NCBI GenBank assembly: GCA_009377755.1 | Contig: WHTM01000011.1 | Location: 62,001 to 126,000, forward strand | From: Hyphomicrobiales bacterium | GTDB lineage: Bacteria > Pseudomonadota > Alphaproteobacteria > Rhizobiales > Xanthobacteraceae | Direction of reading: 5' to 3' | Length of the DNA: 64,000 bases | Part shown: piece after piece, positions 221-39,800 of the stretch | How the letters are laid out: each line of letters starts with the position of its first letter | How positions within the stretch are numbered: position 1 is the first letter of the stretch | Program-made: the position numbers and the translations under genes | The notes under the pieces: generated by a model | What the model saw: only the letters and a program-made list of their open reading frames with translations | The model's database searches: none | Told to the model about the DNA's origin: nothing

Positions 221-327
221 GTCACCCTGAGGCGCTCGCCGCATAGCGGCGAGCCTCGAAGGGCGACGGCCGGGTACCCGCGGCCATCCTTCGAGGGCCA
301 TGCTGCGCATGGCCACCTCAGGATGAC
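221..327. repeat. Palindromic intergenic repeat (CCTGAGG / CCTTCGAGG type)
   Basis: The outer arms GTCACCCTGAGG and CCTCAGGATGAC pair with one mismatch. Inner arms CCTCGAAGG and CCTTCGAGG pair within them. A related core is at 24243-24286. It fills the gap between the cupin and the dehydrogenase. No poly-T follows, so it is not an obvious intrinsic terminator. Confidence 0.8.
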
Positions 328-5927: not shown

Positions 5928-6045
5928 GCTGTCATCGCCCGCGAAAGCGGGCGATCCAGTATTCCGTATCGCCAACGAGAAGCGCCATAGCTACTATTGG
6001 CGTCAATGGTTGCTGGATGCCCCGCATTCGCGGGGCATGACAGCT
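5928..6045. repeat. Palindromic repeat (CTGTCATCGCCCG type)
   Basis: The terminal arms GCTGTCATCGCCCG and CGGGGCATGACAGC form an imperfect inverted repeat, with inner arms around CGATCCAGTATTC and TGCTGGATGC. It fills the gap between the binding protein gene and the first ATPase gene, and may act as a stabilising or attenuating mRNA hairpin. Confidence 0.75.
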
Positions 6046-7508: not shown

Positions 7509-7652
7509 CCTCTCGGTTGTCATCCCGGCCAAGGCGCCGAAGGCGCCGCGAGCCGGGACCCACGTACCCCGGCGCTCACAATTCATCGCTGACGCAGGGA
7601 TACATGGGTCCCGGATCGCCGCTTCACGGCGTCCGGGATGACAGCGGAGAGG
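7509..7652. repeat. Palindromic repeat, CTCTC...TGTCATCCCGG family, copy 1
   Basis: It starts with CCTCTCGGTTGTCATCCCGG and ends with CCGGGATGACAGCGGAGAGG, so the ends are inverted repeats of each other. Inner segments include GGGACCCACGTA and ATACATGGGTCCC, also inverted. It lies inside the transporter cluster. The same termini bracket the GIY-YIG gene at 12046-12336. Confidence 0.9.
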
Positions 7653-9576: not shown

Positions 9577-9774
9577 CTCTCCGTTGTTATCCCGGCCGAG
9601 CATCGCAGGCAAGTTTACGCAGCCTGCGTAAACTTGGCTGCGTGCGAGAGCCGGGACCCATGTACCCCTTCAGTAGCAATTGGAGTACGGCATTCCCACA
9701 GCACAACAATTTTTTGGCTGTGATACATGGGTCCCGGATCGCGCCTGCGGCGCGTCCGGGATGACAGTCGAGAG
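9577..9774. repeat. Palindromic repeat, TGTCATCCCGG family, copy 2
   Basis: The ends are CTCTCCGTTGTTATCCCGG and CCGGGATGACAGTCGAGAG. It also contains an inner inverted repeat (GTTTACGCAG / CTGCGTAAAC, 9611-9632). The inner block occurs in some copies and not in others, so copies differ in their central filler. Confidence 0.9.
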
Positions 9775-10781: not shown

Positions 10782-11816
10782 ATGGCGGCTCCGACCGGTT
10801 CGACCATCATCGACATGTACTGTCACATTTTTCCCGATGCGTTCTTTCGGGAGATGACGCGGATCGCGCCGAAGCTGGAGAATATCGGCCAGCGCCTGCG
10901 CGGCGTGAAGAAGCTATTCGATCTCGACGAGCGGTTTCGCGAGATGGACCAGTTCGGCGACTATCGGCAGGTGATCTCTTTGCCGAACCCGTCGATCGAG
11001 GACATTGCCTCGCCGAGCGATGGTCTTCAGCTCGCCAAGGTCGGCAACGACGCCATGGCCGAGCTGTGCGCCAAGCACAAGCAGCGGTTTCCGACGTTCG
11101 TCGCCGCGGTGTGCTTGACCGATATCGACGGCTCGATCGCCGAGCTCAAGCGCGCGGTGAACGACCTCGGCGCTCGCGGCGTGCAGATCTTTACGCATAT
11201 CGCGGGAACGCCGCTCGACGATCCCCGGTTCGAGCCGTTCTATGCCGCGGTGGCGGAGCTCGACGTGCCGATCTGGCTGCATCCGGTGCGCAACGCCATG
11301 ATGCCGGACTTTCCCGGCGAGAAGAGATCGCGCTTCGAGATGTGGTGGTGCTTCGGCTGGCCCTATGAGACCTCCGTGACGATGGTGCGGATGGTGTTTT
11401 CCGGGCTGTTCGACCGTTATCCGGAGCTGAAGGTCGTCACCCACCACCTCGGTGGCATGATCCCGTACTACGACGGCCGCGTCGGGCCTGGCCTGGAGGT
11501 GCTCGGGCAGCGGACCTCGGACGAGGATTACTCCCAGGTGCTGCCGTCGCTGAAGCGGCCGCACATGGACTACCTCAAGGAGTTTTACGGCGACACCGCG
11601 ATGTTCGGCGGCGGCATCCACGCGATCCGCTGCGGCCTCGACTTCTTCGGCACCGATCACGTGGTGTTTGCGACCGATACGCCGCTCGGGCCGATCGCCC
11701 CGACCATCCAAGTGCTGAGCCGCCTCGCGCTCGAGCCGCACGAACGCCGCAAGCTGATGGTCGGCAACGCCGAGAAGCTGCTGAAGCTGAATTTCACAGG
11801 GCAGGGGCGGCGGTAG
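10782..11816 (+). CDS. Amidohydrolase-2 family protein (ACMSD-like)
   Basis: A 344-residue metal-dependent TIM-barrel protein of the ACMSD group of amidohydrolases. These enzymes are often non-oxidative decarboxylases of aromatic or muconate acids. The N-terminal metal motif reads YCHIFP (about residues 14-19), with the first ligand of the usual H-x-H replaced by Cys or Tyr. Later metal and base regions are visible as WLHPVRN, VVTHHLGG and the C-terminal FFGTDHVVFATDTP. It lies 47 nt downstream of the BKACE gene and is probably in the same operon. The altered first motif leaves metal content uncertain. Confidence 0.85.
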   Translation: MAAPTGSTIIDMYCHIFPDAFFREMTRIAPKLENIGQRLRGVKKLFDLDERFREMDQFGDYRQVISLPNPSIEDIASPSDGLQLAKVGNDAMAELCAKHKQRFPTFVAAVCLTDIDGSIAELKRAVNDLGARGVQIFTHIAGTPLDDPRFEPFYAAVAELDVPIWLHPVRNAMMPDFPGEKRSRFEMWWCFGWPYETSVTMVRMVFSGLFDRYPELKVVTHHLGGMIPYYDGRVGPGLEVLGQRTSDEDYSQVLPSLKRPHMDYLKEFYGDTAMFGGGIHAIRCGLDFFGTDHVVFATDTPLGPIAPTIQVLSRLALEPHERRKLMVGNAEKLLKLNFTGQGRR

Positions 11817-11840: not shown

Positions 11841-12038
11841 CTCCGCAGCTGTCATCCCGGACGGCGCGTAGCGCCGATCCGGGACCCACGTATCCCGATG
11901 CTTGTCGTTGTATCAGGCGACTGCATCACTCAAACTACTGATGCCGGGATACATGGGTCCCGGCTCTCGCACGCAGCCAAGTTTACGCAGGCTGCGTAAA
12001 CTTGCCTGCGATGCTCGGCCGGGATGACAGCCGAGAGG
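11841..12038. repeat. Palindromic repeat, TGTCATCCCGG family, copy 3
   Basis: It runs from CTCCGCAGCTGTCATCCCGG to CCGGGATGACAGCCGAGAGG, with inner segments GTTTACGCAG and CTGCGTAAAC. Its right end (12016-12038) is the left bracket of the GIY-YIG unit and also provides the likely ribosome-binding site GAGAGGG (12033-12039). Confidence 0.9.
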
Positions 12039-12360
12039 GTGCCACTTGCCCTACTACGTCTACGTGCTCGCGAGCGGTCGCCGTGGAACACTCTATACCG
12101 GCGTGACAAATGATCTCGTCAAACGCGTCTATGAACATCGGAACGATTTGGTTCCTGGATTTACTTCGAAGTACGACGCGCATCGCCTCGTGTGGTTCGA
12201 AATTCACGATGACGTTAGCGAGGCCATCGCCAAGGAAAAGCGAATGAAGCGATGGCGGCGGCTATGGAAGGTGGAGTTGATCGAACAGCAGAATGAAGAC
12301 TGGCACGATCTGTGGCCGGGCATCGCGCAGAGATGAACCTCTCCGCTGTTATCCCGGCCG
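12016..12360 (+). mobile_element. GIY-YIG gene bracketed by repeat ends
   Basis: The 23 bases at 12016-12038 and the 23 bases at 12338-12360 are inverted repeats with 21 of 23 matching. The GIY-YIG gene fills the interval almost completely: its start is 8 nt after the left arm and its stop ends 1 nt before the right arm. The same ends bound several gene-less palindromic repeats in this window. I infer that this is the gene-carrying member of a mobile or recombining repeat family. No target-site duplication was identified. Confidence 0.5.
12046..12336 (+). CDS. Small GIY-YIG (URI-domain) nuclease
   Basis: A 96-residue stand-alone GIY-YIG nuclease domain. The two signature strands read YVYVLAS (residues 4-10) and LYTGVT (16-21). 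They are followed by the conserved Arg27 and His31 and the likely catalytic Glu64 in AKEKRMKRW. The family cuts DNA, and small members of this type have been reported to act on repeat sequences. It starts with TTG at 12046, preceded by GAGAGGG six nt upstream. Its two flanks are inverted arms of the window's commonest palindromic repeat, so the gene and the repeats are probably functionally linked. It is unrelated to the catabolic genes around it. Confidence 0.85.
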   Translation: MPYYVYVLASGRRGTLYTGVTNDLVKRVYEHRNDLVPGFTSKYDAHRLVWFEIHDDVSEAIAKEKRMKRWRRLWKVELIEQQNEDWHDLWPGIAQR

Positions 12361-12380
12361 AGCGAAGCGAGAGCCGGGAC
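12338..12380. repeat. Palindromic repeat, TGTCATCCCGG family, half copy
   Basis: CTCTCCGCTGTTATCCCGG is followed by the short hairpin CCCGGC...GCCGGG, after which the element stops. The distal half is missing. It begins one base behind the GIY-YIG stop codon and ends five bases before the stop of the minus-strand dehydratase gene. Confidence 0.85.
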
Positions 12381-13322: not shown

Positions 13323-14282
13323 ATGCAAGACGCAAGCAAGCCGATGGTGATCGCAATCGAGGAGCACTATACGGACCCGGAAGTTACCCAGTACTACAAG
13401 GAGCCGCGCCCGCCGCACATCGTCAAGAAGCTGGAGGACATGGGCGAACTGCGCCTCAAGGAAATGGACGAGGCCGGCGTCGATATGCAGGTGCTTTCGC
13501 ACGGCGCCCCGGCCCTACAGCGCCTCGACAAGGATATCGCCGTCGCGCTCGCGCCCAAGGTCAATGATCGCCTGCACGCGGCGGTCCAGGCCAATCCGAA
13601 GCGGTTGCAGGCGTTCGCCGCCTTGGCAATCCAGGACGCGAAAGCCGCCGCCGACGAGCTGGAGCGGACCGTCACCAGGCTCGGCTTCAAAGGCGCCATG
13701 CTGCACGGGTTGAGCCACGATGGCCGATTTATGGACGACAAGGAGTTCTGGCCGATCTACGAACGCGCCCAGGCGCTCGATGTCCCGGTCTACATGCATC
13801 CGGCGGCGCCCAGCAGGGTGGTGGTCGATGCCTACTACAAGGAATACGCCAAGGATTATCCGCAAATCCTTAGCGCCGGCTGGGGCTATACCGTCGAGAC
13901 CGCGACGCAGGGCCTGCGCATGGTGCTCAGCGGGGTGTTCGACGCCTATCCGAACCTGAAGATCATCCTCGGCCACTTCGGCGAGGGCTTGCCGTTTCTG
14001 CTATGGCGGGTCGATTCCGCGCTCAGCCGTCCCGGCAACAAGGGCGGCTCGTTCCGCAAGCTGTTCAGCGATCATTTCTACGTCACGACGAGCGGCAATT
14101 TTTCCGATCCGGCGCTGATCTGCACGGTGATGGAGCTCGGCATCGACCGTATTCTGTTCTCCATCGACTGGCCGTTCGTCGCGAACCCGCCCGGCGTCGA
14201 CTGGGCTAAGCGCGTGCCGCTGTGCGAGGAGGATCGGACCAAGCTTCTCGGCGGCAACGCCAAGCGGCTGTTGAAGCTTTAG
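13323..14282 (+). CDS. Amidohydrolase-2 family protein (gamma-resorcylate decarboxylase-like), paralogue 1
   Basis: A 319-residue TIM-barrel protein. The N-terminal motif IAIEEHYTDPE is the E-x-H form of the metal site seen in gamma-resorcylate and related aromatic-acid decarboxylases. The middle of the barrel carries YMHPAAPS and LGHFGEGLPF, and the C-terminal part has RILFSIDWPF with the metal-binding Asp. It probably decarboxylates or hydrolyses an aromatic acid in the cytosol. A closely similar protein of the same length is encoded at 14477, so this is a tandem duplication. GAGGGAGAGAAGGGAA lies upstream of the ATG. Confidence 0.87.
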   Translation: MQDASKPMVIAIEEHYTDPEVTQYYKEPRPPHIVKKLEDMGELRLKEMDEAGVDMQVLSHGAPALQRLDKDIAVALAPKVNDRLHAAVQANPKRLQAFAALAIQDAKAAADELERTVTRLGFKGAMLHGLSHDGRFMDDKEFWPIYERAQALDVPVYMHPAAPSRVVVDAYYKEYAKDYPQILSAGWGYTVETATQGLRMVLSGVFDAYPNLKIILGHFGEGLPFLLWRVDSALSRPGNKGGSFRKLFSDHFYVTTSGNFSDPALICTVMELGIDRILFSIDWPFVANPPGVDWAKRVPLCEEDRTKLLGGNAKRLLKL

Positions 14283-14292
14283 CCGTCTGGCG

Positions 14293-14448
14293 CAGCTGTC
14301 ATCCCGGCCAAGCAGCCAAAGGCTGCGCGAACCGGGACCCATCTATCCCTCGCACGTCGGGACGCAGGGATCCCGGCTCTCGCACGCAGGCAAGTTTACG
14401 CAGGCTGCGTAAACTTGCCTGCGATGCTCGGCCGGGATGACAGCCGAG
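14293..14448. repeat. Palindromic repeat, TGTCATCCCGG family, copy 4
   Basis: The ends are CGCAGCTGTCATCCCGG and CCGGGATGACAGCCGAGA, with the inner GTTTACGCAG / CTGCGTAAAC arms. It sits exactly between the two paralogous amidohydrolase genes. Confidence 0.9.
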
Positions 14449-14476
14449 ATATGCGACCGACATGGAGGATTTTTGC

Positions 14477-15436
14477 ATGGCAAAGCCGACCATCATCGCG
14501 ATCGAAGAGCACTACGCCGATCCGGAACTGACCAAGCACTTCCCCCCGGGCGCGCAGCCCGGCGTGCTGGGGCCGATCGGCAAGAAGATTCAGGACCTGA
14601 CCGATGTCCGCATCAAGGAAATGGACGAGGCGGGCATCGACATCCAGGTGCTCTCGCACGGCGCGCCAGCGACGCAGCGGCTTGATGCCAGCGTCGCCGT
14701 CGATCTCGCCCGCCTGGTGAACGACCGGCTGCATCAGACCTGCCAGGCGCATCCGACGCGCTTCGCGGGCTTCGCCGCCTTGCCGACCGCGGACCCGAAG
14801 GCGTCCGCCGACGAACTGGAGCGTACCGTGACCAAGCTCGGCTTCAAGGGCGCGATGATCCACGGCTTGAGCCAGGGCCGCTTCCTCGATGAGAAGGATT
14901 TCTGGCCGATCTTCGAGCGCGCCCAGGCGCTCGACGTGCCGATCTACATGCATCCGGCGGCGCCCGACGCGACCGTGGTCGAGCGCTACTACAAGGAATA
15001 CACCAAGTCCTTCCCGGCGATCCTCAATGCTGGCTGGGGCTTCACGGTGGAGACCGCGACCCAGACCGTGCGACTGGTGCTCAGCGGCGTGTTCGAGGCC
15101 TATCCGAAGCTCAAAATCATCGTCGGCCACCTCGGCGAAGGCATTCCGTTTCTGCTCTGGCGCATCGATCAGGCGATGTCGCGGCCGGAGAATGCCGGGC
15201 TCTCGTTCCGCGACCTGTTCTGCAAGCACTTCTGGATCACCACCAGCGGCAACTTCTCCGATCCGGCGCTGTTGTGCTCGGTGCAGGAACTGGGCGCCGA
15301 CCGCATCCTGTTCGCGGTCGACTGGCCGTTCGTTGCCAACAAGCCTGCGGTCGAGTGGATGAACCGGGTGCCGCTTTGCACCGAGGACCGGGTGAAGATC
15401 CTCGGCGGCAATGCCAAGCGGTTGCTGCGGATGTGA
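14477..15436 (+). CDS. Amidohydrolase-2 family protein (gamma-resorcylate decarboxylase-like), paralogue 2
   Basis: A 319-residue protein, clearly paralogous to the gene at 13323: the same IAIEEHY start, the same QVLSHGAPA segment, YMHPAAPDA, GHLGEGIPFLLWR and a matching RILFAVDWPF end. It also shares the ITTSGNFSDPAL stretch before that end, where paralogue 1 has VTTSGNFSDPAL. The start at 14477 is supported by GGAGG about 8 nt upstream; the in-frame ATG at 14462 lies before it. The pair may have diverged to different substrates or may form mixed oligomers. It is probably transcribed with paralogue 1, through the repeat between them. Confidence 0.87.
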   Translation: MAKPTIIAIEEHYADPELTKHFPPGAQPGVLGPIGKKIQDLTDVRIKEMDEAGIDIQVLSHGAPATQRLDASVAVDLARLVNDRLHQTCQAHPTRFAGFAALPTADPKASADELERTVTKLGFKGAMIHGLSQGRFLDEKDFWPIFERAQALDVPIYMHPAAPDATVVERYYKEYTKSFPAILNAGWGFTVETATQTVRLVLSGVFEAYPKLKIIVGHLGEGIPFLLWRIDQAMSRPENAGLSFRDLFCKHFWITTSGNFSDPALLCSVQELGADRILFAVDWPFVANKPAVEWMNRVPLCTEDRVKILGGNAKRLLRM

Positions 15437-15449
15437 TGTTGGCGCAAAA

Positions 15450-15644
15450 CTCTCCGCTATCATCCCGGCCGAACGCAGTGAGAGCCGGGACCCATATATC
15501 CCTGCTTTCACCAATTTGGCCGTGGCACCGCCACGCGCGACAACCACGACCGGGATACATGGGTCCCGGCTCTCGCGCACGCAGCCAAGTGTACGCTGCG
15601 TAAACTTGCCTGCTTTGGCGCTCGGCCGGGATGACAACCGAGAG
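15450..15644. repeat. Palindromic repeat, TGTCATCCCGG family, copy 5
   Basis: The ends are CTCTCCGCTATCATCCCGG and CCGGGATGACAACCGAGAG. Inner blocks TGTACGCTGC and GCGTAAACTTG resemble the inner arms of copies 2 to 4. It ends one base before the stop codon of the minus-strand cupin gene, so it separates two convergent genes. Confidence 0.88.
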
Positions 15645-24046: not shown

Positions 24047-24087
24047 TGTTCTGACTGAGACGCGTTCCCCGCACGCGGTGCAGCACA

Positions 24088-24156
24088 CCGGAAGTCGGGT
24101 AAACCCGACTTCCGGCGCTCTATTGAGTGCCGCAAGTCGGAAACATCCGACTTGCG
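24088..24156. repeat. Pair of perfect hairpins, second copy
   Basis: Same pair as at 1203-1271: a 13-bp stem with the loop AA instead of GT at 24088-24115, and a 10-bp stem with a 6-nt loop at 24131-24156. The order and the inner sequences are the same, showing recent shared origin. Confidence 0.85.
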
Positions 24157-28654: not shown

Positions 28655-28747
28655 TCGTCCCCGCGAAGGCGGGGACCCATACTCCGCGGGCTCTCGATAG
28701 GTCTGTGGTTATGGGTCCCGGGTCTCGCTACGCTCGCCGGGACGACA
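28655..28747. repeat. Palindromic repeat (GTCGTCCCCGCG type)
   Basis: GTCGTCCCCGCG and CGCCGGGACGAC form the imperfect outer arms, with inner GGGACCCATA and TATGGGTCCC inverted. It lies 7 nt beyond the 3' end of ftsH. The inner arms match those of the TGTCATCCCGG family. Confidence 0.8.
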
Positions 28748-33175: not shown

Positions 33176-33270
33176 CGTCATGCCCACGCTTGTTGTCGCG
33201 GGCATCCACGTCTTAGAAAGCCCCACCGCATCAAAGACGTACATGGCCGGGACAAGCCCGGCCATGACGA
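33176..33270. repeat. Palindromic repeat (GTCATGCCC type), pal-cpoB gap
   Basis: GTCATGCCC and GGCCATGAC lie at its ends with an inner CGGGCATCC / GGCCGGGAC arrangement. It occupies the 325-nt gap between pal and cpoB. The rest of the gap holds little else apart from the short tandem repeat at 33322-33350. Confidence 0.7.
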
Positions 33271-39666: not shown

Positions 39667-39800
39667 GCCGTTGTTGTCATCCCGGCCGAGCGCAGCGAGA
39701 GCCGGGACCATGTATCCCTGTGATTCGATCTATCATCAACACTGGGGTACGTGGGTCCCGGATCGGCTTCGCGTCGCTCGCCATCCGGGATGACACCGCG
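39667..39800. repeat. Palindromic repeat, TGTCATCCCGG family, copy 6
   Basis: CCGTTGTTGTCATCCCGG at the left and CCGGGATGACACCG at the right are the arms. GGGACCATGTATCCC and GGGTACGTGGGTCCC lie within. It separates the esterase from the quinone reductase gene. Confidence 0.88.

Follow-up and report, generated by a model that had tools for sequence, protein, structure and literature searches.

Small stand-alone GIY-YIG nucleases as candidate partners of CGTC-tagged REPs

The Ssn/NTS system of Neisseria reportedly combines small, stand-alone, single-strand-specific GIY-YIG nucleases with a high-copy cognate repeat; Ssn is said to cut this repeat and to affect transformation, and homologs that recognize different sequences reportedly occur widely. 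By analogy, Ssn/NTS appears to be the nearest precedent for the locus described here and an apt one, which lowers the novelty of our observations. On the side of the repeats, the parts of Di Nocera et al. (2013, PMC3733652) used here describe CGTC REPs with a CGTC or TGTC tag, a stem starting with AT and a CCA tail, which form predominantly head-to-head dimers and apparently lack a dedicated transposase. The same parts equate Neisseria CGTC-1 with dRS3 and give most families an 8-9 bp stem and a 4-5 nt loop, with exceptions that include Bradyrhizobium CGTC-1 (PMC3733652).

The window, that is, the whole 64,000-nt stretch of DNA analyzed here, encodes a stand-alone GIY-YIG nuclease (Table 1) of 96 aa with a TTG start. 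The protein matches the Pfam GIY-YIG domain (PF01541; E = 4.2e-14), which places it in the superfamily, and its structural model (pLDDT 95.3) has a single PDB match below E = 0.001, namely, 1zg2 (UPF0213; E = 5.5e-4), followed by Slx1, UvrC, and I-TevI with weaker E-values. Residues Y5, Y16, R26, and E63 (in a numbering one lower than that of the class-associated residues given below) are invariant in 40/40 aligned sequences, and we take them to be the catalytic Tyr, Tyr, Arg, and Glu of the superfamily. NCBIfam contained no match for this protein, PADLOC gave none, and Rfam at gathering thresholds gave none in 9.5 kb of the window.

Table 1. The nuclease gene and the repeats in the window
Feature	Position	Strand	Basis or detail
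GIY-YIG nuclease gene, A-class member of clade S	12046..12336	+	ORF, Pfam, protein tree, fold
REP pair, tags outward, directly upstream of gene	11851..12028	.	REP 11852-11887 (+), REP about 11954-12028 (-)
39-nt inner palindrome (family D5) in loop of second upstream REP	11972..12010	.	repeat search
Left outer repeat end facing gene	12016..12038	-	21/23 identical to right end
Right repeat end with one REP (GTTAT tag, stem, CCGGGAC)	12338..12380	+	repeat family D4, pattern match
Gene-less A-class REP pair, tags outward	7519..7642	.	end matches; long hairpin
Gene-less A-class REP pair, tags outward	9586..9765	.	end matches
Gene-less A-class REP pair, tags outward	14298..14441	.	end matches
Gene-less A-class REP pair, tags outward	15459..15635	.	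end matches
Gene-less A-class REP pair (related ends), tags outward	39676..39794	.	end and pattern matches
H-like REP pair, tags outward	5932..6040	.	TCATCGCCCG..CGGGCGATCC and TCATGCCCCG..CGGGGCATCC
B-class REP paired with an A-like REP, tags outward	28655..28745	.	
C-class hairpin TCATGGCCGGGCTTGTCCCGGCCAT	33242..33268	-	
D-class REP TCATCCTGAGG..TCGAAGGATG	285..326	-	

The initial annotation had placed this gene between inverted repeat ends, 21/23 identical and within 1 to 7 nt of the gene. Both 23-mers (the right one spanning 12338-12360) are as described, and the gaps measure 7 and 1 nt. The inverted-flank score of the gene is 21.0, and scores of 15 or more were reached at only 1 of 433 shifted positions. 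The inverted layout stands, but this unit has the minority geometry: its outer ends, which carry the TCAT tag, point toward the gene, and in most other units the tags point away from it.

The A-class repeat forms a hairpin that is flanked by a TGTCAT tag and, at the opposite end, by a CCCA tail. The pattern GTYATCCCGGN{5,35}CCGGGAC matched 72 times in the window's genome and 0 times when read backwards; six of the 72 matches lie within 5 kb of the window gene, with 0.14 expected, and two of these adjoin it. The gene-less copies with the same outer ends that had been noted earlier were all located, including the pair directly upstream of the gene and the related pair (Table 1). In single-strand folding, 7510-7651 gives a long hairpin with z = -8.07, and z is -3.2 and -5.6 for the two parts of the pair directly upstream of the gene; the single REPs at 12338 and 39667 folded no better than shuffles (z = -0.98 and -1.12). 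Two of the three other main A-clade genes (L018 and L091) share the upstream arrangement of the window gene and the third (L066) does not. No empty site for the window's own unit was present among the related loci compared, where the two neighboring genes never occur together; this sample of relatives contains no second genome of the window's genus.

A second palindrome, CAAGTTTACGCAGSCTGCGTAAACTTG, is nested in the loops of A-class REPs at 9604-9642, 11972-12010, 14385-14423 and, in a weaker form, 15576-15614, and the REPs of L157 and L274 also hold inner palindromes. The paralogous neighbors at 13323-14282 and 14462-15436 encode proteins that are 67% identical to each other and about 31% similar to that of the gene at 10782-11816. 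A double hairpin (ACACCGGAAGTCGGGT..), unlike CGTC REPs, is present in two 72-nt copies that are 86% identical (1200-1271 and 24085-24156).

The window's genome contains eight GIY-YIG matches, of which seven are stand-alone genes and the eighth, in a 730-aa frame, is presumably UvrC. Palindromic repeats of several classes adjoin 7/7 stand-alone genes: class A at the window gene (L004), B at L001, C at L005, D at L002 and L003, and F at L007, with the truncated L008 adjoining a C-class repeat. The inverted-flank score itself is low at L003 (10), L007 (9.5), and L008 (8.5).

The flanks of such genes in related genomes were compared, as the initial annotation had proposed, in a sample of 51 genomes of the family, from 47 genera, with at least 116 stand-alone genes analyzed first and 5 added later. 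The test called for an inverted match of 15 or more between both flanks, with shifted positions and other GIY-YIG clades as controls. Among the matches listed, the first-analyzed genes had inverted flanks in 55/70 cases for S and 9/17 for D, with 15/70 and 8/17, respectively, under the threshold; in the controls, the counts were 0/21 for GWT and 0/8 for URI, both stand-alone clades, and 1/433 for shifted positions. Four of the five later-added genes likewise had inverted flanks, the exception being a divergent protein. Flank pairs drawn from different genomes reached the threshold in 7% of cases because the repeats are shared between genomes. An REP occurs within 300 nt of 61/70 S and 14/17 D genes, compared with 1/21 GWT and 0/8 URI genes, among the matches listed. 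Around S genes, REP density is 6.19 per kb up to a distance of 150 nt and drops to 0.20-0.48 per kb beyond 300 nt (0.45 per kb at 1.5-3 kb); up to 150 nt from GWT and URI genes, it is 0.23 per kb. The best 80 named loci from a scan of genome contigs, which include Bradyrhizobium, Omnitrophota, Flavobacteria, Planctomycetes, and Brocadia, had inverted flanks in 56/80 cases, with 24/80 under the threshold, vs 1/287 shifted positions. Chance as the cause of the inverted flanks is ruled out by the shifted-position and other-clade controls.

Two peculiarities of individual genes were also observed. The D-class genes of L002, L021, and L034 end within their downstream repeat (CCTGAGG), which contains the stop codon TGA, and L300 and L098 are C-class nuclease genes with an internal stop codon that are still bounded by C-class repeats, inverted on both sides.

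The repeats beside these nuclease genes are CGTC-tagged REPs. A CGTC, TGTC, or CCTC tag is present in 197/227 and a CCA tail in 185/227 of the REPs adjoining S-type and named genes. Since the pattern used in the search already specified the TC of the tag and most of the tail CC (its first C, then C or T), only the CG, TG, or CC of the tag and the last A of the tail were free to vary. The gene units are mostly of the +- arrangement (69, against 14 -+), and the tags mostly face away from the gene. Gene-less adjacent pairs comprise 37 +-, 9 -+, 4 ++, and 4 -- cases, with the tags outward in 37/54. By class, B, C, and H fit an 8-9 bp stem with a 4-5 nt loop, and in A, D, E, and F the inner stem is longer and varies.

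The repeat class, assigned from DNA alone, follows the nuclease. When the 8 repeat classes of 65 S genes were mapped on the protein tree, 10 changes were required vs 31-40 in 500 shuffles, and 72/79 pairs of S or D genes that share a genome have different repeat classes. Among the best 80 named loci, the class of the nearest relative predicted the repeat class correctly in 35/43 cases and wrongly in 8/43 (shuffled maximum, 24), the remaining 37 loci having none of the defined classes. The association of nuclease and repeat that had been proposed for the window is, then, general and class specific, and tracks the nuclease tree rather than the genome. The residues most closely tied to repeat class, uncorrected for shared ancestry, are 12, 13, 18, 62, 66, 69, and 71 of the window protein; 62, 66, and 69 are on the helix holding the invariant Glu and 12-13 are in the loop joining the first two strands.

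Equal abundance of the repeats in the absence of the gene, which the initial annotation had listed as evidence against its own reading, was not the general pattern: five of six classes are in excess where the gene is present, whereas Ctg shows no significant excess and E repeats can be abundant without their gene. The median copy number, counting the repeats that flank the gene itself, was 86.5 in 4 genomes with the gene vs 0 in 47 without it for the A main clade (p = 7e-5), 59.5 (10 genomes) vs 2 (41) for E (p = 4e-4), 44 (15) vs 6 (36) for D (p = 4e-6), 10 (7) vs 0 (44) for H (p = 1e-5), 12 (14) vs 3 (37) for Cgg (p = 3e-3), and 2 (7) vs 0 (44) for Ctg (p = 0.11), these p-values not being independent because the 51 genomes are related. 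In the wider A set of seven genomes, two have no A repeat copy. For A, E, D, H, and Cgg, the cognate combination gives the strongest signal of its row; off the diagonal, -log10 p is 2.5 for the E gene with D repeats and 2.2 for the H gene with E repeats. Copy numbers of E repeats are 222, 101, and 78 in three genomes that lack an E gene, so the gene is not needed for the persistence of existing copies. At G028:C14:5466-7047, six H-class REPs in one orientation, spaced by about 310 nt, resemble a tandem array.

The state of individual units was compared at 70 sites downstream of a tuf-like gene in the genus coded g25, read as Bradyrhizobium via the query locus L202. The genes bordering this site, which are convergent, we take to be tuf and lepB. 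A nuclease match, partial genes included, is present in 22/70 sites, 11 sense and 11 antisense to the upstream gene. The 41 sites with lepB on the far side comprise 8 sense and 7 antisense cassettes, 12 lone palindromes, 2 remnants, 2 bare sites, and 10 others, some of which resemble decayed palindromes. On the lepB tree, these states require 24 changes, of unpolarized direction, vs a shuffled mean of 24.6, so no phylogenetic signal is detectable in them. L267 and L261 are 98% identical on both sides and yet carry different cassettes (73% at the nucleotide level) in opposite orientations, L261 holding in addition a second, broken cassette; likewise, at a second site, L157 and L158 have flanks 97 and 95% identical and a gene 72.6% identical. 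L202 and L168 (93% flank identity) were rejected as a further swap in near-identical backgrounds: the flank matches 389/391 genomes, mostly twice, and therefore belongs to a conserved gene, read as tuf, that says little. Because this flank is uninformative, the claim of cassette swapping rests on L267/L261 and L157/L158. These comparisons show that cassettes turn over; the record is detailed for the first site and consists of a single comparison for the other.

Orthologous sites with and without the unit, the comparison proposed at the outset, are thus on record for the Bradyrhizobium site and not for the window's own unit. The accompanying claim that gene-less copies are deleted derivatives is true for some of them: of four units tested, three (L274, L261, and L260) retain recognizable pieces of the gene, with best E-values of 2e-11, 4e-8, and 5e-5 against a very small database, and L244 has none at the protein level, its DNA showing only a leader-like stretch. 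The inverted flanks, the distribution of repeat classes on the nuclease tree, the copy-number excess, and the varied sites together make the pairing of nuclease clade and REP class well supported and indicate that the units turn over.

We propose that every clade in a family of small stand-alone GIY-YIG nucleases has a CGTC REP class of its own as partner in a REP-nuclease-REP unit, and that cutting of the cognate repeat followed by repair spreads the REPs, a reading to which we assign a probability of about 0.68. The family of the window gene would be widespread, each clade with its own REP class (tag YGTCAT, variable hairpin, tail CCA), and the usual unit would be a head-to-head REP pair with outward tags and the nuclease gene as spacer, a putative GIY-YIG counterpart of the RAYT REPtron. 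In its exposed hairpin form, whether single-stranded or cruciform, the cognate REP would be bound by the nuclease and cut close to the tag; repair templated by another REP copy would then spread REPs and swap or flip cassettes. Slippage between 8-nt arms could then yield lone palindromes, and internal deletion could yield gene-less, MITE-like pairs. From these sequence patterns, we infer that the nuclease recognizes or cuts its repeat and that it may drive cassette turnover. The odds seem to us even for the more specific proposition that cognate GIY-YIG nucleases mobilize or maintain CGTC REPs, with the cassettes as autonomous elements from which gene-less pairs and lone palindromes derive by deletion, several independent nuclease-repeat pairs per genome, and specificity in the Glu helix and the first-strands loop.

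Alternatively, the nuclease could serve the host in housekeeping or DNA uptake by cutting its cognate repeat, as is said of Ssn in Neisseria, the repeats spreading by other means and the gene being kept adjacent by selection on cutting. Class-specific pairing would suit any repeat-recognizing nuclease, and some genomes have high repeat copy numbers without the gene; however, cassettes differ, flip, and vanish at one site even in 98% identical backgrounds, and such variation would be unusual if the host function were fixed, and a genome can contain several pairs of different classes, so we consider this explanation rather unlikely. A further alternative, with a lower likelihood still, concerns the direction of change. 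GIY-YIG is a homing endonuclease superfamily, and the gene might home into lone REP palindromes, whose symmetry permits either orientation, as in the even split of sense and antisense genes among the 22 sites with a nuclease match; the palindrome would then be the target and not a remnant. Against this, the 14 palindromes typed (one of them, L294, at a site with a nuclease match as well) include 6 LR and 1 RL, the forms that deletion between 8-nt direct repeats, the arms CCCGGAAT or ATTCCGGG, should leave, although 2 LL are not of this kind (5 are untypable), and the remnant cassettes indicate that loss does occur. Homing endonucleases sit in their own target and are inherited by homing; here, presence, absence, and orientation vary at one site, with the direction unpolarized. 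A passive association, with REPs acting as terminators, mRNA stabilizers, or insertion hot spots and genes retained or inserted beside them by chance, is very improbable. In its favor, REPs have been described as lying chiefly between genes that are unidirectional or convergent (PMC3733652) and as targets of insertion (PMC8450116), and the genes on either side of the Bradyrhizobium site, which we take to be tuf and lepB, converge. Against it, inverted flanks were found in 0/29 genes of two other stand-alone GIY-YIG clades from the same genomes, among the matches listed, and mere placement would not tie the repeat class to the protein tree instead of the genome. Recombination between repeats without any nuclease action could also have produced the states of the Bradyrhizobium site.

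The pairing of GIY-YIG nucleases with CGTC REPs resembles Ssn in joining a small stand-alone GIY-YIG protein to a high-copy cognate repeat, represented in the window's genome by the 72 A-pattern matches. It appears to differ from Ssn in the several pair classes per genome, the usual place of the gene as spacer between head-to-head REPs, and the turnover of cassettes. If the proposed reading is correct, these genes would provide natural sets of GIY-YIG enzymes with different, readable hairpin targets.

The CGTC REPs in the parts of PMC3733652 used here share the tag, a stem that starts with AT, the CCA tail, and the predominance of head-to-head dimers with our repeats, and have no transposase gene associated, whereas the repeats described here flank a nuclease gene. 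Compared with most CGTC families in that source, classes A, D, E, and F have a longer and variable inner stem, and class D lacks the CCA tail (PMC3733652). Br-REP1 and Br-REP2 of Bradyrhizobium and Rhodopseudomonas are also palindromic intergenic repeats, but their printed consensus sequences differ from the repeats here, and the terms GIY-YIG and endonuclease are absent from that paper (PMC5082802). Among the matches listed from the openly licensed literature, represented mostly by title and the start of the abstract, no link between GIY-YIG nucleases and REPs was recognized. Our results suggest a GIY-YIG nuclease as a candidate partner for CGTC REPs, a repeat class that had none. What moves these REPs is a question in print (PMC3733652, as far as used here), which a class-specific candidate enzyme makes testable.

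The likeness to REP/RAYT systems lies in genes flanked by tagged REPs (55/70 S genes, among the matches listed, and 56/80 best named loci), in repeat-specific genes, and in head-to-head gene-less pairs (PMC3733652, in the parts used here). RAYTs are HUH tyrosine transposases paired with GTAG-tagged REPs, whereas the enzyme here is a GIY-YIG nuclease and the tag is CGTC or TGTC. If our reading holds, two unrelated nuclease folds, HUH and GIY-YIG, would each have been drawn into repeat-bounded cassettes.
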